A stretch of DNA of 37,843 nucleotides from a virus: positions 1-37,843 of IMG/VR virus record IMGVR_UViG_3300031951_000519; one strand, 5' to 3'. Below are positions 6,714 to 15,596 of this stretch, piece after piece. The notes below the pieces were generated by a model. The model was not told where the DNA came from and ran no database searches. It worked only from the letters and a program-made list of their open reading frames with translations. Made by a program: the position numbers and the translations under genes. Every line of letters starts with the position of its first letter. The stretch's first letter is position 1.

Positions 6714-7142
6714 ATGCGCAAACCCGCATTCATCCTAGCTCTAGCGGCATTGCTCACCTCATGCGCAAGTCCCCGCATCGATCCTGAGCCTGTCACACGG
6801 CGCGCAAAATTGGCCCCACAAGAAATTAAAATTTATACATCCCCCGCAGGCGGCATCGTCGATTGGAACGGGAATGTCCTCGGCGCGGCCCCGCTCACCA
6901 TCCAGGTCGAGCCACAAATGATCTTCGGTCGTCCCGTATGGCCATCCAACGGCGCAACCATCCAACGCCTCCGCGCCCGCTGGCCCGACGGCAGCATCGC
7001 CACAGAAACCTTCAGCACCCAGCAAACCCTCCCACAAGTCGTCGGAATCATCAGCCCCAACTACCGCCACAATCCCCTCCTCGACGCCCTCTACAAAGAT
7101 GCCTTCACCAAACGAGACCTCACCCAGCAAACCGGCCCTTGA
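6714..7142 (+). CDS. PEGA-like lipoprotein, lysogeny module
   Basis: 142 residues. An N-terminal signal with lipobox L-T-S-C puts lipidated Cys at position 17. The next part, I-K-I-Y-T-S-P-A-G-G-I-V-D-W-N-G and G-A-A-P-L-T-I, resembles a PEGA-type beta repeat. The rest is Pro/Arg-rich. The start follows the membrane protein gene by nine bases. A lipoprotein expressed with the lysogeny genes would sit in the envelope of the lysogen and is a typical candidate for superinfection exclusion or host-surface change (inference). It could also be a passenger gene unrelated to phage growth. Confidence 0.75.
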   Translation: MRKPAFILALAALLTSCASPRIDPEPVTRRAKLAPQEIKIYTSPAGGIVDWNGNVLGAAPLTIQVEPQMIFGRPVWPSNGATIQRLRARWPDGSIATETFSTQQTLPQVVGIISPNYRHNPLLDALYKDAFTKRDLTQQTGP

Positions 7143-7299
7143 AGCCCTTGCCAAGTTCATCGACACGCTCGACATTCCCATCGTGAGCGAAAAAGAACTA
7201 GCCCAGGACGACGAAGCATTCCGCCCCGCTTTAGTAAACGGCCAAGCTCCGAACTCGACCCAACCAAGTGGCGACCAAAGTGGCGGACGCAATACTTAA
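7099..7299 (+). CDS. Small hypothetical protein overlapping the lipoprotein gene
   Basis: 66 residues, overlapping the lipoprotein gene by 44 bases in another frame. The middle is plausible protein (A-L-E-A-L-A-K-F-I-D-T-L-D-I-P-I-V-S-E-K), mostly acidic and probably helical. The last residues (P-S-G-D-Q-S-G-G-R-N-T) are encoded by the first two attP arm repeats, so the end of the gene and the recombination site share DNA. No family recognised. The long overlap lowers confidence. Confidence 0.5.
   Translation: MPSPNETSPSKPALEALAKFIDTLDIPIVSEKELAQDDEAFRPALVNGQAPNSTQPSGDQSGGRNT
7266..7288 (+). repeat. attP arm-type repeats, left (P) arm, two copies
   Basis: Two head-to-tail copies of the motif (A)AAGTGGCGACC / AAAGTGGCGGAC at 7266-7276 and 7277-7288. 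The same motif occurs five more times, in the same orientation, to the right of the tRNA-derived core. This is the arrangement expected for integrase arm-binding sites. The copies overlap the 3' end of a small coding frame. Confidence 0.75.
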
Positions 7300-7329
7300 A
7301 CACCTCAATATCAACAAATGAATCTGAAA

Positions 7330-7373
7330 CTACGGATCAGAAGGTTGAAAGTTCGAGTCTTTCCGGCTGCACC
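7330..7373 (+). other. attP: attP core: 3' part of a tRNA-Arg(ACG) gene
   Basis: These 44 bases read as the 3' part of a tRNA: anticodon loop CTACGGA (anticodon ACG, Arg), stem strand TCAGA, variable loop, T-arm GAAAG-TTCGAGT-CTTTC, acceptor strand CGGCTGC, discriminator A, then CC. There is no D-arm and no 5' acceptor strand, so this is not a working tRNA. The bases before it (TCTGAA) look like the 5' anticodon stem with two extra bases, so homology to the host gene probably ends at the anticodon loop. Integration here would rebuild the host tRNA 3' end. Phage genes on both sides mark this as attP. Confidence 0.85.
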
Positions 7374-7377
7374 CCCC

Positions 7378-7533
7378 AAGTGGCGACCAATTCCACTTTT
7401 CCCTAGTAAGGCATCAGAACTTCGCGGAATTTCGCTTTGCCATGTTTGCAGTTTATCCTTTGCTGGCTGGATCAAAGTGGCGACCAAAGTGGCGGACAAG
7501 CGGCGACCATATTTTCTGATTAAAGTGGCGACC
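7378..7533 (+). repeat. attP arm-type repeats, right (P') arm, five copies
   Basis: Copies of the AAGTGGCGACC motif at 7378-7388, 7474-7485, 7486-7497 (GGAC variant), 7498-7508 (AAGCGGCGACC, one mismatch) and 7522-7533, all in the same direction. The pair at 7474-7497 repeats the exact GACC/GGAC doublet found on the left arm at 7266-7288. The last copy ends eight bases before the integrase start codon, so bound integrase could repress its own gene (inference). Confidence 0.8.
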
Positions 7534-7541
7534 GCAAATTT

Positions 7542-8633
7542 ATGAGAAAACACGGAGAAGTTTCGGTTTACTGGAAAGAGGCTCGCAGGGGGTGGTATTA
7601 CCGCGTCCAGCTTGACGGGAAGCGGGTGGAGAAGTCTTGCGGCGTGTCGCAGAACTCCAAGGCGGGCCGCGAAACGGCGCTCAAGAAGGCGCGGGCGATT
7701 GCGGCGGCGCTTCAGGGAGGCGATGAGATGGCGTTGTCCGAGGCGGTGCGCAGGCCGGGCTTTGCGACGCTGGGCGAAGTGGCTGACATTTACTCGGCGC
7801 ATGGGCCGGAGAAATCGAAAACAAAAACCTTGAGTCGTTTTGTGATGTATGCCCGGGAAGCCACGGGGCGCGAGGATTGGCGGGAGAGGTCTTGTGAGGC
7901 GGCTCTGAGCGCGGAGGCTTTGCGGCGCTGGATCACGGCGCAGGAGCGGGCTGGGCGCTCGAAGAACGGCATTCACTCGGATGTGAGCCAAATCAAAAGC
8001 GTGGTGGCCAGGAAACGGATTCACCTTTTCAAAGACATGAAGCTGCCGGACCTCACGGAGTTTTGGATGGTGACGGGTGGTTCGACTAAGACCGAGGGCT
8101 ACCAACCCATCGACCGCGCCGTGTTGCGCCGGATGGACGCCGCGGCGAGGATTCCTCTGCGGCGGGAAAACGCCCGGGTGTGGGCGATTTATTGGCTGAT
8201 GCGGAAGGCCGGGCTGCGCAACGAGGAGGTCGAGGATTTGAAGTGGGCCTGGGTGGAGTGGAAGGACAAAAAGACGGCGGTGCTGGTGCTGGTGGAGCGC
8301 GAGGGTTGGACGCCTAAAGGCCGCAGCGGGCGTGTGCCGGTGCGGGCTCGGCTCATGCGGTTGATCCAGCGGGCGCTTGGTGGCGGGGAGTATGTGATTC
8401 CCCGGAAACACAAGACCGAGGCGCATGATCTCACGCACTACGACATCAATGATTTTGTGCGGCGCTTCCTCCCGGATGGAAACAAGGGCGCTTACAACCT
8501 TCGCAAAGAATACGGCGCGCTCATTGCGCTGCGCGACGGGATCGAGGTGGCGAGCCGTTTGCTACGGCATAGCGACATCTCGACCACCTACCGGCATTAT
8601 CACAATCTTATCGACGAGCCGGAGCCCCTGTGA
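7542..8633 (+). CDS. int: Tyrosine recombinase (phage integrase)
   Basis: 363 residues. The N-terminal part (1-60) is basic and would bind the arm repeats. A SAM-like core-binding domain covers about 75-170 and the catalytic domain about 185-355. Catalytic candidates: Arg226 (G-L-R-N-E-E-V), Lys259 (T-P-K-G-R-S-G-R), Arg321 (Y-N-L-R-K), His343 (L-R-H-S-D-I-S-T-T) and nucleophile Tyr353 (Y-R-H-Y-H). The usual H-x-L-R box has Tyr318 in place of His, a change tolerated in some family members. It would integrate the phage at a host tRNA-Arg gene through the adjacent attP. No Shine-Dalgarno is evident; the start follows the last arm repeat. It converges with the giant ejection gene, three bases apart. 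Confidence 0.93.
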   Translation: MRKHGEVSVYWKEARRGWYYRVQLDGKRVEKSCGVSQNSKAGRETALKKARAIAAALQGGDEMALSEAVRRPGFATLGEVADIYSAHGPEKSKTKTLSRFVMYAREATGREDWRERSCEAALSAEALRRWITAQERAGRSKNGIHSDVSQIKSVVARKRIHLFKDMKLPDLTEFWMVTGGSTKTEGYQPIDRAVLRRMDAAARIPLRRENARVWAIYWLMRKAGLRNEEVEDLKWAWVEWKDKKTAVLVLVEREGWTPKGRSGRVPVRARLMRLIQRALGGGEYVIPRKHKTEAHDLTHYDINDFVRRFLPDGNKGAYNLRKEYGALIALRDGIEVASRLLRHSDISTTYRHYHNLIDEPEPL

Positions 8634-8638
8634 GGCTC
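8622..8638. terminator. Weak hairpin between convergent genes
   Basis: GAGCC (8622-8626) pairs with GGCTC (8634-8638) around a seven-base loop that contains the integrase stop. The right arm overlaps the stop of the giant gene. There is no U-tract on either strand and the stem is only five base pairs. It may weakly slow transcription from both sides but is not a convincing terminator. Confidence 0.2.
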
Positions 8639-11600
8639 ACTGCATGAGGGCTGCGCCCACTCCGCTATCCATCATCTGCTGCATTTCTTGGCGGCGCTGG
8701 AGGGTTTGCTGGTGCTCGATTTGGGCGCGCTGCTTGAGGTCGGGGCGGGAAAGCAGGATGCGGTATTTCGCGGCGGTGGCGGCTTTCTCTAGGGCGCGGG
8801 TGAAGGCTTTGGCTTTGATGTCCCAAGTCGCCTTGTCGTAGCGCGGATCATCGAGGACGAATTTCTCCACGGCGGCCACGCTCAGGGCTCCCATGTCCTT
8901 TTGGAGGGCGCTGATTTCCTCGGTGGTGAGGCGGACTTTAACGCCTTCGAGGGTGAAGTCTCGACCGGCTTGGTTTGGGATCACCGAGGGATTGCCGGTC
9001 ATTTCATAAACCTGACTCATCTCGGTGAGGAGCGGGCTTTTCTTGATGTATGTCACCATCGAGGGATTGAAGAGGACATTGAAGACGGTGTTGCTGTGGC
9101 GCTGGTAGCGTTCCACATCTTCTCCGAGGATGTCGCGCTTGGCAGGGAGGGTTTGGCTGAGGCCGGGGAGTTGGGATTTGAGTTCGTTGACATATTGCCG
9201 GAAGGGCGAGGAGTCGCGGGTTTCGCGAACGGTATTGTCATCGAGTTGCATCCATTGCCGGGCGGCGGTGGGCATCATGCTTTTGGGAACATCGGAAGCG
9301 GCGGCGAGGATGGCGCCGGGGATGTCGTCGTAGGCAGCATTGCGGAAGAAAGTGCTAAGGCCGCTGAGGAGCGGTTGCTCGACGAGGGCGTTCATGGCTC
9401 CGGTGGCCGAAGCGGCGGCGGCGGACATCCAGTTAAAGCCGGCGGCGAGGAGGCTTTGCTTCTTCCCGCGAAGGATGTCTTCCTGCACGGCTTTCTGGTT
9501 CTCCTTGGCGTAGGCTCCCATGGCGACGCTGATGGAGAGCGGCTGCGCCCAATCGTAGTTCACCACGACATCGCCATCCTGTCGCGGTTGGCGGGTCCAG
9601 AAATTGCCGGTGATGAGGGCACGCTTGAGGGCGCTGACATTGAGTTTGTAGGAGCCCCAGCCTTCCGCTTTGGCGAGGTTGCGCTTCTTCTCGTCTTCGT
9701 TCTCGCGGCCTGCGGAGATGATGCCGAGTTGGGCGAGCCAGTAGCCGGTGGCGACGAGGCCGGTGGTGCCGACGAGAGCGCGGCTGAATTGCTCGGTGAA
9801 GGCCTTTTGATCAAAAGCAACGCGGTTGCTGAGGGCAGGAGCGAGGAGTTGGTAGGCGTTGCGGATAAATCCGAGCGGGCTGAATTCGATTCCGCGCATG
9901 AGGATCGAGCCGGGGACTTGCGTGAATTTCATCAGCATGGAGCCGAGCCCCCAGCGTTGATTGGCATTCAGCACGCGGCGAAGGCCGCTGAGAGTGCGGC
10001 TGGCGGCGTTTTCATCTTGATAAACGGCCCGGCTGGCATCCATGCGGGCTTGCGCGATCATGTCTGGCGTGGGCGCGGCGAGTGGGGGGCCATCCTGCGC
10101 GGCGAGGCGCATTTGATTGTCGAGGCTGGCCCGGAAGGCGGATTGATAAAACCCGCGATCTACGAGGCTGAGAGCGGCACCGAGGGTATCTTCGAGGACT
10201 TTGCCAATGCCGCTTTGGAAGGTCGTGCCGGTGAAGCCGGTGATTTCGGCGCTGTCGTATTTCTTGGAGGAGTAAAGGCGACCGAGGCGAATGAGGGTTT
10301 GCACGCCCTCTTTAAAGGAGCCGAGGCGGCCCATGCCCTGAGTGCGGGCAAATTCGTAGCCCGCTTGGATGTCCCCAAGGCCCGCTCCGAGTTCGATAAA
10401 CCGGGTGCCAAGGTCGAGGCCGGTGCGCGTGCGGTTTCCGGTGACGATGGAGACGGCGGCATCCGCTCCCCAAGCCACGGTATCGGCGGAGAGGTCGGCC
10501 CCGAACATGAAAGCATTGCCCCCGATGTTGCGAATCCATGTTTTGGGATTTAGCAGCATCATGAGGGTTTGGAAGGTGTCGATCTTGGCGAGCATTCCGG
10601 CAGGCATGGATTCGCGGTAGATGACATCGAGGGCTTCGGCGGCTTTGACGAGTTTCACGCGGGGGTCTGTGGCGGCCTCGCGCTGGCGGAGGAGGTCTTG
10701 GACTTTGGCGGAGTGCTCGGGGGTCCAGGCGGGGATGCCTAGCATCTTGGCCATGTCGGCGTGCAGGCGGGAGTCGGTGAGCTTGCCTTCGCGGTTGAGG
10801 CGGATGAGCGAACCGATTTTGGATTTGTTGAACCGGCGGTCCTTTTCGGCCAGGGCGAACAGGTCTTGCAAGACTTTGGCGCGGGAATCGGTGGTGGTTT
10901 TGAGGAAATCCTTGGTGATGCTCTGGGCGATGCGGATGGCGGCGCGCTCGCTGAGGCCGTTGTCCTGGAGGATGCGGGCGGTGGCGGCTTGGGCGGCGAG
11001 TGGCGTGGGGCTTTGGAGGATGGCTTCGCGGATGGCGATGTTGGTGGCGACGGCATCGGCCCCGGCGGGGAGCGCGGCTTTGATGGCGGCGCGGTTGTCC
11101 ACAATGGCGGCGGTGGCGGAGTCGCGCTTGGCGGTGGCGATCTCGGCGCGGAGGCGTTGGTTGTCTTGGATCAACTCCTCGATCTTGGGATCGTTGCGGG
11201 CGGCGCGGGTGATCTGGCGGGAGGCGAAGGCTTCGATGCCTGCGGGGGTGAGGCGGGAGATAAGGGAGAGGGCTTGGATGGCTTGACCCTGGGTGGTTCC
11301 GGCGCGGGCCATGAAGTCGGCGATGGCGGCGGCATCTTCGTGGCGGCCTCGGGATTGGAGCTGGCCGAGGAGTTCGATGCCGGTGGCGTAATCGACGGCG
11401 GTGGGCTGGAAGTCGGGATTGGCGGCGTTTCCCATGAATTGGGTCACGGCGGAATCCATGGAGCCAGCGGCATCAATGCGGGCACGGGCGGAGGCGACGG
11501 TCTGGGCGTTCGAGATGGGGTCGTAGTCGAGGGCGGTGAGTTGGGCTTTGACCTCCGGGGCGACGCCCGGCGCGGCTTGCACAGATTGTGTGAACTTGCG

Positions 11601-14600
11601 GGGCTTGGGCTCGGCTGCAAAGTAAGCTAAGGAAGAAGCAGGAATACCCTCTTGCCTTTTCCATGCTTGCCCTGGATTTGGAGTGGATGCATAGCCTGCC
11701 CGTTTGTTTGCAGTAAAGGCTTCAGAAAGTTGGCGGTCGTTGAGAGCGGGGAGCTTTTCAAGACCTGGGAACATGGCTTCGTGAGGCTCGACTCGGCCTC
11801 TGATGCGGTCCCATAGAGTCCATTGCGCCGGAAAAATTTCGATACCTATGGATTTTGCACGCTCGGCGTTGATATCCAGAGCCAACCGGTAGGCTTCAGA
11901 CATGACTTGAAAATCCTTTGGAGTCTTTACCCACTCAACTCCTTGGATCGACTCAGGCAGATTCGGATTTACCTGGCCACTTTTCATTAGATATTTGTTT
12001 TTGCGACTGCCCATAGCCGCAAACACCGCTTCGTTAACAAAATCTTTGATGCGATCCGCACCAAAAATTTCGGCTTGGCCCAACACATCATCCAAGGTGT
12101 CCGCTTTAAGGGCGGACGGATCCGGTAAATTCTGCATAGCAGCTGCCTTATCCTGTTCAGCTTTTGTTTTAGCCTTGTCGGTTTTAGCTTTGCGAATTTT
12201 TGCGTCGGCCGTTTTGACGGTCGCCTTAGAAATATCCAAAAGGTTGTTGAACCTATTAACAACAATCCCTTCAAAACGCCCTCGGATATCTGGATTGTTT
12301 ATAAGCTCATCGCTAAAAGCCCGAGCCATGTGGCGATCCATGGCCGAGATGCCAGCGTTCAACGGGTCTTGCCACACACCGCCAAACGATGCCGTCTTTG
12401 TGCCGAGGCCGGAGACTTGCGTGGTGAGCTTGTCAACAAAGTTTGCCCAGGACTCTTTGGGTTTTTTGATGAAGAAGTCGGGGTTCTTCACAAAAAGTTT
12501 CGATGCCATGACGATGTTTGAAAGATCAACAGAAATTCCAATTCCCAGCCCCCCACTCTTGGCCTCGGTAAATCCAAGTTCGTTTTTGAGGCGCTTGTTT
12601 ACTGACAGGCGTTGCTCCTTGGTAGGGTTGTCTGGTAGCAGATCAGCGAATCGCTTGATCTCTTCCATTGTGCTGAAGCGCATGCGGGCTTGGCCAAATT
12701 CATTTGGAAGCAAAGGGGAGTTCGGCGAGAGCATTCCGAAAAGAATGCCGTTGAATTTTTGGACATTATTTCCTCGCTCCGGCGTCATGGTGCGAGCCAA
12801 CTTGGCCGTGAGTTGTCCGTGCAACTCAACCGGCAGCTTTCTTACATCTACCGCGTTGGCCTTGAGGTGAAGGAGGTCGAAGTAGGTGAACTTTCCGTCA
12901 AGTCCACCGGGTATTTGCGCCACAGGTCTTCCCAGCTCATCCACGATGTTGGAGATTTCACTGAGAGGGCCAAGGTTTCGGACACCGAATTCTTGACCAT
13001 ACGCTTTAAAGTCTTCTGGAGACCACTGCGAGGGTTCTTTGCCGTTGTAGTAGACCGTGCCATCTTCTTTAACCTCTGCTTTCTTCTTCACAATAGCACC
13101 TCGTCGCGGAAGAGCATCAAGAATATTTTGTTGAGCACTTGGCTCAGTTGCAAAACTCAGGATGGATTGCTCGGTGGCGTTGGCTTTTTCCATTCCTCGC
13201 AGGGCCGGGGCGATGGTTTTGGCGAGGTCGCGGCGGAGGGCGGTGAGGTCGGTGGCGAATTGGGGGGTGCCCCAGGTGGCTTGGGATTGGCGGGTGAGGA
13301 GGGAATCGACCCACTCGTTGAAGGAGGTCCAGATTTTCTGGATGAGGGGGCGGTTTTCGTTTTGGACGGAGCGCCAGAATTCGGGGTCGAGGAAGGCGTC
13401 GCCGAGGGTGTTGTTCGTGAGTTCGGCGGTCTGGGTGCGGACGCGCTGGGTGGCGGGGCCGGTGCGGTAGATGGGGGCGGCGGCGGATTCGCGGGCGCGG
13501 GTGCGGTAGGAATCGGTGTAGGTGGCGACGACGCGGCGGAGGTCTTTGTAGAGGGCGGGCTGGGTGTATTCGAGGGTGTGGCCGTATTCGTGGCCGATGA
13601 GGGAGGCGATGGGGCGCTGGGAATCGGCGTTGAGATAGATGGTCTGGGCATCGTCGCTGCGGACGGCTCCGCCGAAGATGGTGGGGTCGCTGGCTTTTAC
13701 AAACTGGATGCGGGTGCCGGTGAGGCGGGAGAAGTTGTCGATGAAGTCGGCAAGGGGGGCTCCGGCGTCCACTCGATCCAGGTTGACGGGGGCAAGGTCG
13801 AGGGTGGAGGCGGTGTCGAGGATGCCTTGGGTGCGGAGCTGGCCGGTGAGGCGGTTGGAAAAGTCTGTGGCAAGGGCGGTTTGCTCGGGTGTGATGGCAT
13901 CGGTGGAGAAGCTGAGGGCTGGGCGGGGCGGCGCGGGGGCTTCGGGAGACGGGGCGAAAGGATCGGCGGGCGCGGGCTGGGGCGGGGCGAAGGGGGAGCC
14001 GAAGGCTTCGTCGAGGGCGGTTTGGTCGATGGGGATTTCGGGGGCGCGGACTTGGCCGAGGTTTTGAGGGGCTGGCGCTGGGGCCACGGGGCCGGGCGCG
14101 GGTGCCGGGGAGGAAATTGGTGTGAAGTTTTGTGGGACTTCGCCAGGGGCGGGCTGGGTGGCGGAGGCGGCGCGGCCTGCGGCGATCTCGATGGCGGCTG
14201 GCCCGACTTCGCCGATCACTTCTCCGAAGACGGCTTTGGGGTTTACGGGGTCTCCGGCAGCAACCGATCCGGCCACCTCGCCTGCTCCTCCGAGCCCTCC
14301 TTGGATGGCTCCTTCTGTGACAGCCAGGCGGACGGGGGTTTTGGCGGCGGCGCGGAAGACAGAGCCTACTCGCCCGGCGATGCCAGCGGAAAGGGCATCG
14401 AATGCCGCAACAGGCACGCCGCGTTTCAAGGCGGCATCCTTGGCTTCAGCCATGAGCGTTTCGTTGCTGAAGAAATTGGCTATGCTTTCCGGGTCTTTGG
14501 GATTCATCCCGGCGGTCTGCAACTCTTCGAGTATTTTGCCTCCGTATTCTGTGGCAAATGAACCCGCTCCCGTGCCACCGATCATGCCTGCGGTGAAACC

Positions 14601-15596
14601 ACCGCCTGCGCCGATCACATTTCCCACGCCGGGCACTACCGATCCAGCGACACCGGTCACAGCGGCGGTCGTGGCTCCTGTGGCAAGGCCGCCTGCAAGT
14701 GCGGGCCAGCTCCCAGCAAGACCTTCGGTGATGATATTTGTCGTCACCTCAAAGGGGTTTTTGGCAAAGGCTTTCGCGGCATCCCATCCCTCGGCCTGCT
14801 GGTAGGCGGCGTAGCCTGGGGCCACGCGGCGGGCGGCTTTGTTGTATTCGATGCGGGCGATCTCGGAGGCGTCGTTGGCATCGAGGCCATCAGTGGCCAT
14901 CAAAGCCTGGCGGGCAGAGTCGAAGGCGTTCTGCGCGGCGTTGGCGATGCCTTGGAGCGTGCCGACTTCTTTGGGGGATTCTTCGACGAGCATTTCACCG
15001 GCAGCCATGGTGCGGATGTTGGCCATGCGGGCATCGGCGGCGGCTTGGGCTTCGGGGCTCACGGCTTGGGCGCGGCGGATGGTGACGGTGCCATCGGCAT
15101 TGACCGGGGCGGCTCCGAGGTTCACGCGCTCGAACATGGGGAGGTTGAGGATTTCGCCAACGGCGGCGGCTTGCTGGCGGCGCTGGCCTTCCTGCGGGTC
15201 GCGGTAGTCGAGGACTCCAAGGGCGTCGGCGAGATCGGGGGAGATGACGGGGAGGCGGTCGTCGGGCGTGGTGGCCTCGGCGACGGCTTGCTGGGTGGCG
15301 GCTTGGTCCGCTTGGAGAGCAGCGAGAAGAGGATTGGCCCTTGGAGCTGGCGCAATTTCGGCAGAAGTCTCGGCAGGCTCCGTCGCATCGAAGGGCGTGT
15401 AGGTTTGATCGACCTCTTCCGGAAACGCGAGGGTGTCTTCGCTCGTCGCAGCATCGGGCGTCATCTCCGGCAACGGGGTGTCGAAGTCGATCATGCGCGC
15501 CCCGGCGGCGGGCGTGGGGGCGGACATGGGAGAAAACCCCGAAGCGGAATTGCCCTCGCGGTCAGCCAGGAGAGCGTCGAGAAGTGGATTGGCCAT
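8637..15596 (-). CDS. Giant phage ejection/polyvalent protein with zincin domain
   Basis: 2,319 residues, last gene of the leftward unit. The N-terminus carries a duplicated short motif (A-N-P-L-L-D-A-L-L-A-D at 2-12, and A-N-P-L-L-A-A-L-Q-A-D further on). A Gly/Ala-rich hydrophobic region lies near 290-350, followed by a Pro-rich linker. A zinc-peptidase motif H-E-Y-G-H is at 669-673. Residues about 815-1327 are encoded by visibly AT-richer DNA bounded by similar DNA and protein segments (S-F-A-T-E-P / Y-F-A-A-E-P), a likely inserted module. Helical polyvalent-protein-type regions follow (L-L-N-P-K-T-W-I-R-N-I-G-G-N). Such giant proteins in podovirus-like phages are packaged in the head and delivered with DNA; the peptidase may open the cell wall or process proteins. 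Role is inferred from size, position and motifs. Confidence 0.85.
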   Translation of the reverse strand: MANPLLDALLADREGNSASGFSPMSAPTPAAGARMIDFDTPLPEMTPDAATSEDTLAFPEEVDQTYTPFDATEPAETSAEIAPAPRANPLLAALQADQAATQQAVAEATTPDDRLPVISPDLADALGVLDYRDPQEGQRRQQAAAVGEILNLPMFERVNLGAAPVNADGTVTIRRAQAVSPEAQAAADARMANIRTMAAGEMLVEESPKEVGTLQGIANAAQNAFDSARQALMATDGLDANDASEIARIEYNKAARRVAPGYAAYQQAEGWDAAKAFAKNPFEVTTNIITEGLAGSWPALAGGLATGATTAAVTGVAGSVVPGVGNVIGAGGGFTAGMIGGTGAGSFATEYGGKILEELQTAGMNPKDPESIANFFSNETLMAEAKDAALKRGVPVAAFDALSAGIAGRVGSVFRAAAKTPVRLAVTEGAIQGGLGGAGEVAGSVAAGDPVNPKAVFGEVIGEVGPAAIEIAAGRAASATQPAPGEVPQNFTPISSPAPAPGPVAPAPAPQNLGQVRAPEIPIDQTALDEAFGSPFAPPQPAPADPFAPSPEAPAPPRPALSFSTDAITPEQTALATDFSNRLTGQLRTQGILDTASTLDLAPVNLDRVDAGAPLADFIDNFSRLTGTRIQFVKASDPTIFGGAVRSDDAQTIYLNADSQRPIASLIGHEYGHTLEYTQPALYKDLRRVVATYTDSYRTRARESAAAPIYRTGPATQRVRTQTAELTNNTLGDAFLDPEFWRSVQNENRPLIQKIWTSFNEWVDSLLTRQSQATWGTPQFATDLTALRRDLAKTIAPALRGMEKANATEQSILSFATEPSAQQNILDALPRRGAIVKKKAEVKEDGTVYYNGKEPSQWSPEDFKAYGQEFGVRNLGPLSEISNIVDELGRPVAQIPGGLDGKFTYFDLLHLKANAVDVRKLPVELHGQLTAKLARTMTPERGNNVQKFNGILFGMLSPNSPLLPNEFGQARMRFSTMEEIKRFADLLPDNPTKEQRLSVNKRLKNELGFTEAKSGGLGIGISVDLSNIVMASKLFVKNPDFFIKKPKESWANFVDKLTTQVSGLGTKTASFGGVWQDPLNAGISAMDRHMARAFSDELINNPDIRGRFEGIVVNRFNNLLDISKATVKTADAKIRKAKTDKAKTKAEQDKAAAMQNLPDPSALKADTLDDVLGQAEIFGADRIKDFVNEAVFAAMGSRKNKYLMKSGQVNPNLPESIQGVEWVKTPKDFQVMSEAYRLALDINAERAKSIGIEIFPAQWTLWDRIRGRVEPHEAMFPGLEKLPALNDRQLSEAFTANKRAGYASTPNPGQAWKRQEGIPASSLAYFAAEPKPRKFTQSVQAAPGVAPEVKAQLTALDYDPISNAQTVASARARIDAAGSMDSAVTQFMGNAANPDFQPTAVDYATGIELLGQLQSRGRHEDAAAIADFMARAGTTQGQAIQALSLISRLTPAGIEAFASRQITRAARNDPKIEELIQDNQRLRAEIATAKRDSATAAIVDNRAAIKAALPAGADAVATNIAIREAILQSPTPLAAQAATARILQDNGLSERAAIRIAQSITKDFLKTTTDSRAKVLQDLFALAEKDRRFNKSKIGSLIRLNREGKLTDSRLHADMAKMLGIPAWTPEHSAKVQDLLRQREAATDPRVKLVKAAEALDVIYRESMPAGMLAKIDTFQTLMMLLNPKTWIRNIGGNAFMFGADLSADTVAWGADAAVSIVTGNRTRTGLDLGTRFIELGAGLGDIQAGYEFARTQGMGRLGSFKEGVQTLIRLGRLYSSKKYDSAEITGFTGTTFQSGIGKVLEDTLGAALSLVDRGFYQSAFRASLDNQMRLAAQDGPPLAAPTPDMIAQARMDASRAVYQDENAASRTLSGLRRVLNANQRWGLGSMLMKFTQVPGSILMRGIEFSPLGFIRNAYQLLAPALSNRVAFDQKAFTEQFSRALVGTTGLVATGYWLAQLGIISAGRENEDEKKRNLAKAEGWGSYKLNVSALKRALITGNFWTRQPRQDGDVVVNYDWAQPLSISVAMGAYAKENQKAVQEDILRGKKQSLLAAGFNWMSAAAASATGAMNALVEQPLLSGLSTFFRNAAYDDIPGAILAAASDVPKSMMPTAARQWMQLDDNTVRETRDSSPFRQYVNELKSQLPGLSQTLPAKRDILGEDVERYQRHSNTVFNVLFNPSMVTYIKKSPLLTEMSQVYEMTGNPSVIPNQAGRDFTLEGVKVRLTTEEISALQKDMGALSVAAVEKFVLDDPRYDKATWDIKAKAFTRALEKAATAAKYRILLSRPDLKQRAQIEHQQTLQRRQEMQQMMDSGVGAALMQ
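11608..13154 (-). other. Low-GC inserted module within the giant gene
   Basis: Between imperfect direct repeats GGCTCGGCTGCAAA (11608-11621) and GGCTCAGTTGCAAA (13141-13154; 12 of 14 identical on the plus strand) the composition drops sharply. I counted 24 G/C in 12241-12300 against 43 G/C in 13201-13260. The reading frame is kept. The module encodes about 510 residues with Lys-rich, well-folded-looking sequence (for example T-K-T-A-S-F-G-G-V-W-Q-D-P-L-N-A-G). No enzyme family is recognised. Confidence 0.65.

Follow-up and report, generated by a model that had tools for sequence, protein, structure and literature searches.

Putative attP with tandem arm-type sites and a tRNA-Arg(ACG) core in a phage group predicted to infect Verrucomicrobiota

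Genome context and integrase gene

The window, i.e., the whole stretch of 37,843 bases that was analyzed, is an IMG/VR virus record encoding tail, head, and terminase-like proteins. A tyrosine integrase of 363 aa is encoded on its plus strand at 7542-8633 (PF00589, E 3e-7; phrog_1, E 7e-19), and a stretch containing direct repeats and the 3' part of a tRNA gene lies directly upstream. No homologue of the integrase was found in the annotated phage collection, no sequence match was found in PDB, and no DNA similar to the window was detected in annotated phages. Known arm-binding domains consist of a three-stranded sheet plus a helix; the N-terminus of the integrase was predicted to form three strands (E9-12, E17-24, and E27-32) and a helix (H40-58) in a low-confidence model (mean pLDDT 61.5), and residues 1-60 are presumed to be the arm-binding domain.

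All aligned integrases carry YxLR instead of the HxxR usual in tyrosine recombinases (Y for the first H), and most members of groups two and three of the relatives described below have LLRDS at the later catalytic His position. In these members the active site departs from the standard one at two positions, although the genes appear intact. Downstream, a minus-strand ORF of 2,319 aa (8637-15596) converges on int and has only a weak match, to a PHROG of unknown function; its DNA is 90-96% conserved in a distant relative (L097) despite the exchanged int. No sigma-70-type promoter match was found near int.

Direct repeats upstream of the integrase gene

Seven copies of an 11-base repeat, all on the plus strand, are located within 7266-7533, two to the left and five to the right of the tRNA 3' end (starts at 7266, 7278, 7378, 7475, 7487, 7498, and 7523). 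Four copies read AAGTGGCGACC, two read AAGTGGCGGAC, and one reads AAGCGGCGACC. The first-pass annotation, made from the letters of the window, had described seven copies of the GACC/GGAC type in a single orientation, with the same doublet on both arms, and this description was borne out: six copies are exact AAGTGGCGACC or its GGAC variant, the copy at 7498 has one mismatch, and the doublet of AAGTGGCGACC and AAGTGGCGGAC occurs both at 7266/7278 and at 7475/7487. AAGTGGCGRMC (at most one mismatch) has 10 matches in the 37.8 kb, seven of them inside the 268 bases of 7266-7533, while the whole-window mean in 100 dinucleotide-preserving shuffles was 2.64, with a maximum of 7. The octamer AAGTGGCG alone is less striking (7 found versus a mean of 2.44 and a maximum of 8 under a Markov model whose training sequence was the window), and the argument therefore relies on the full-length copies, their clustering, and their conservation.

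The left arm (7266-7288, plus strand) consists of two tandem arm-type sites, AAGTGGCGACC at 7266-7276 and AAGTGGCGGAC at 7278-7288, which start at -64 and -52 when counted from the first core base. Just to the right of the core lies another arm-type site, AAGTGGCGACC (7378-7388, plus strand), found in groups one and two only. The right arm (7475-7508, plus strand) comprises three tandem sites, namely AAGTGGCGACC at 7475, AAGTGGCGGAC at 7487, and AAGCGGCGACC at 7498, the first two at +145 and +157; the last right-arm site (7523-7533, plus strand) ends 8 bp before the int start codon, and a site close to the int ATG is present in all relatives. Between these right-hand sites, at 7389-7474 in the window and soon after the core-proximal site in groups one and two, a loosely conserved stretch (TTTCC..CTAG.TAA...TCAGAA) was noticed, which is perhaps a bending-protein, RDF, or promoter element.

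Both left arm sites also lie in frame at the 3' end of a small plus-strand ORF of 66 aa (7099-7299), which had no PHROG match, and the C-terminal SGDQSGG is encoded by them. In L097, the putative attP is likewise preceded by a similar ORF, which stops just short of the repeats.

tRNA-Arg core and host target

The core (7330-7371, plus strand) is the 3' part of a tRNA-Arg(ACG) gene, from the first anticodon-loop base to the discriminator base, and matches host genes exactly. It had first been annotated as a 44-base tRNA 3' end, of which 42 bases hold generally and 44 (to 7373) only where the host gene encodes CCA. No complete tRNA was found in the window, and the fragment had no Rfam match. When the genome collection was scanned with a 41-base tRNA end allowing T-arm degeneracy, eight contigs matched, all of them from Verrucomicrobiota, and ARAGORN called a tRNA-Arg(acg) gene at five of these eight loci with the core end. 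The predicted anticodon (ACG) and acceptor strand (CGGCTGC) both proved correct, and the search for a bacterial tRNA-Arg sharing the fragment, which the first-pass annotation had proposed, returned exact matches in tRNA-Arg(ACG) genes of Verrucomicrobiota MAGs. The host gene reads GCAGCCGTAGCTCAATTGGATAGAGCATCTGACTACGGATCAG...CGGCTGCACCA and the phage reads ...AATCTGAAACTACGGATCAG..., indicating that exact identity begins at the first anticodon-loop base; the left half-site of the phage has two additional As before this point and diverges further out. In one host order, 26 of 147 genomes carry the core tRNA end in several T-arm versions, and several T-arm versions of phage cores are mirrored in hosts of the same order.

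Phages are generally known to carry tRNA genes and decayed copies of them, so the fragment could be the remnant of a phage-borne tRNA gene, with the adjacent repeats having nothing to do with integration. A relic would decay, whereas in every relative the anticodon-loop boundary and the T-arm pairing are kept and the sequence agrees with tRNA versions present in hosts today; the distant relative L097 has the anticodon-loop boundary on a different tRNA. This explanation was rejected on the kept boundary, the kept pairing, and the matched host versions, and we regard it as scarcely credible.

Additional tRNA-Arg 3' fragments were observed in host genomes (two copies in L085, one in L086, and others in L088 at 4501, L030/L089, and L027), and one genome, G086, holds three copies of the core. 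In L027, L030, L085, and L088 the displaced fragments begin at or just before the core boundary, which is what integration of other elements at this position would be expected to produce. None of the extra host fragments was accompanied by the window integrase family or its repeats, and a home-made motif scan for integrases in the host loci, which was maybe too strict, found nothing. Judging from these fragments, Verrucomicrobiota appear to have a hot spot of integration at the tRNA-Arg(ACG) gene.

Conserved arm geometry in related phages

Relatives of the integrase in IMG/VR were placed in groups, the first three of which are 55-96% identical to the window integrase and show the same attP layout at every locus read. 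Group one (L017-L019) is 95-96% identical, group two (L020-L025, L046-L057, L059, and L063) about 60%, and group three (L045, L058, L060-L062, and L064) 55-66%. Groups one and two share the repeat AAGTGGCGACC, while group three has AAGTTGTCCCC with the tRNA-Arg target unchanged. A fourth, more distant relative (L037/L097) is 43-44% identical and combines the repeat AAGTGGTCCAT with a tRNA-Lys(CTT) core.

The left-arm positions of the window are identical in all relatives of groups one to three. Group three keeps both -64/-52 and +145/+157 despite its different repeat; its outer left copy is degenerate, as is its first right copy. In group two the pairs lie at -64/-52 and +156/+168, and in L097 at -62/-50 and +134/+146. 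The right pair therefore shifts by 11 bp, about one helical turn, between +134/+146, +145/+157, and +156/+168. The spacers of the window resemble those of group three or L097 no more than shuffled sequence does, indicating that the spacing is kept and the letters are not. The earlier concern that the repeats might be unconserved GC-rich sequence was thus examined and set aside, because sequence and spacing are conserved in phages with related integrases and the distant spacers are at about shuffle level. The same conservation of repeats and spacing beside related integrases lends support to the originally proposed layout of integrase arm sites around a core.

The repeat pattern is reminiscent of the ends of insertion sequences with multiple terminal repeats (IS21-like), and chance G+C-rich sequence might also be considered. 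However, the copies have a single orientation, no full-form copy lies elsewhere in the window, and the 23-base double repeat was not found in any of 384 bacterial genomes from the class. This double repeat occurs in 12 viral contigs, each of which carries the related integrase, and the linkage refutes the insertion-sequence explanation, which we consider extremely improbable.

Exchange of arms, core, and whole cassette

L045 encodes a naturally chimeric integrase. Over residues 1-60 it shares 85% identity with L058 and 53% with the window, and over the catalytic domain 58% with L058 and 72% with the window; the repeats of L045 are of the L058 kind. L063 combines AAGTGGCGACC arms and a group-two integrase with a TGAGG/CCTCA core otherwise seen in group three. 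The combinations in L045 and L063 indicate that the repeats travel with the N-terminal domain of the integrase, and L063 together with the T-arm versions of the hosts indicates that cores match tRNA versions found in hosts.

These observations bear on the possibility that the repeats are mainly operators for int or the 66-aa gene, and that the tRNA fragment recombines alone with no need for arm sites. In every relative only a few bases separate the last sites from the int ATG, and integrase autoregulation through att binding is known (PMC2951348), both of which fit operators. However, the sites flank the core at fixed positions, the left pair lies 250-280 bp from int, and the repeats covary with the integrase's own N-terminal domain; moreover, regulation would be an extra role rather than an alternative. 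A purely operator function was rejected on the fixed positions on both sides and the N-terminal covariation, and is very unlikely in our estimate.

In DNA, the L097 contig is 90-96% identical to the window on the right side of int and 76-83% on the left side, whereas no DNA similarity was found over attP and most of int (about 7242-8512 in the window). The tRNA-Lys(CTT) gene in the MAG of L097 matches its 42-base core exactly from the anticodon loop on. With the backbone near-identical and int and core different, one phage lineage has carried two differently aimed cassettes. L097 itself is an unbroken attP on an 11.4-kb contig whose MAG membership rests on binning, so it is not a proven lysogen.

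We favor, with some reservation, the view that the family forms a natural series in which the attP-int cassette has been reprogrammed part by part on a nearly fixed, helically phased geometry: the arms together with the first ~60 integrase residues (L045), the core according to the host tRNA-Arg version (L063 versus L020), and the whole cassette by a swap from tRNA-Arg(ACG) to tRNA-Lys(CTT).

Proposed integration mechanism

It is very probable, on the sequence evidence described, that 7266-7533 is the attP of a temperate Verrucomicrobiota phage, with arm sites bound by the Int N-terminus and recombination at the tRNA-Arg(ACG) copy. The N-terminal domain would bind the tandem 11-bp sites on both arms, while the core-binding and catalytic domains would work on the tRNA-Arg(ACG) copy at its anticodon-loop end, where we infer the crossover and strand exchange with the host gene; the core sites cut by the catalytic domains would lie at the anticodon stem-loop. 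Because attP carries the anticodon loop through the 3' end, integration would restore an intact tRNA, and the host 3' half would be displaced to the far prophage end. The predicted attL is a full tRNA-Arg followed by CCCCCAAGTGGCGACC, and the predicted attR consists of the left arm, tRNA 3' end, CCA, and host sequence. The spacing, which is either conserved or altered by roughly one turn of the helix, implies an intasome that is bent and phased and most probably lambda-like. Since the right-hand sites abut the int start codon, Int probably represses its own gene.

Related prophages at host tRNA-Arg(ACG) genes, which the first-pass annotation had suggested looking for, did not appear: no integrated prophage with attL/attR of the window integrase family was found among 384 sampled genomes of the class and 213 of the order, and no such junctions were found in viral contigs. 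The absence of integrated copies from the sampled genomes limits the integration claim and does not contradict it. A search of viral contigs for full-tRNA junctions gave one match, L041, which lacks the repeats and the window integrase; at 7880-8090 it holds a complete host-type tRNA-Arg beside a tRNA-Lys-like 3' fragment, possibly the prophage boundary of another element.

Comparison with known attachment sites

In lambda, a heterobivalent integrase acts on arm-type and core-type sites, and arms flank the core on either side. The window shares this layout of sites, but it differs in its arm consensus and in targeting a tRNA gene, and no known sites for bending proteins or Xis were identified in it. 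The attP of mycobacteriophage Pixie (Cluster K3) has paired direct arm sites around a tRNA core 5' of int, and relatives of Pixie have the same core with different arm sites (PMC3203893). Both attP sites have their tRNA core placed 5' of the gene for a tyrosine integrase and share a left pair and a right trio of arm sites in direct orientation; unlike the window, Pixie has a sixth, inverted site and a Mycobacterium tRNA-Lys target, and its integration has been shown, whereas that of the window phage is predicted (PMC3203893). No sequence relation between the window integrase and Pixie was found in the phage collection.

The intS/attL region of KplE1 in E. coli is also alike, since the integrase reads away from att and the target is a tRNA-Arg gene; the arm sites of KplE1 overlap the intS promoter region (PMC2951348), as those of the window, the last of which ends 8 bp before the int ATG, may also do. 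However, the arm consensus differs, autoregulation has been shown for KplE1 intS and is presumed for the window int, and no RDF was identified in the window phage (PMC2951348). Anticodon-centered tRNA attachment sites (Islander class A) form a large known class in which the identity block begins at the anticodon loop and extends to the tRNA gene's 3' end (PMC4383910), and the same sublocation is seen here for tRNA-Arg and, in L097, for tRNA-Lys. Islander sites were mapped from integrated islands, while the window is seen from the attP side only (PMC4383910). The assignment of the putative attP to the arm-site/core type of lambda, L5, and Pixie, with an anticodon-loop sublocation and in an unannotated phage group, is well supported by these sequence features.

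A phage group without annotated relatives would thereby gain a likely host group, Verrucomicrobiota with this tRNA-Arg end, and a likely integration site. In its natural variants, arm recognition can be told apart from target choice and from geometry, which makes them useful for studying how integrases choose their sites. If the proposed part-by-part series holds, it would be a ready set for reading the arm-site recognition code. Few integration tools are known for Verrucomicrobia, and the variants may be usable for building them.
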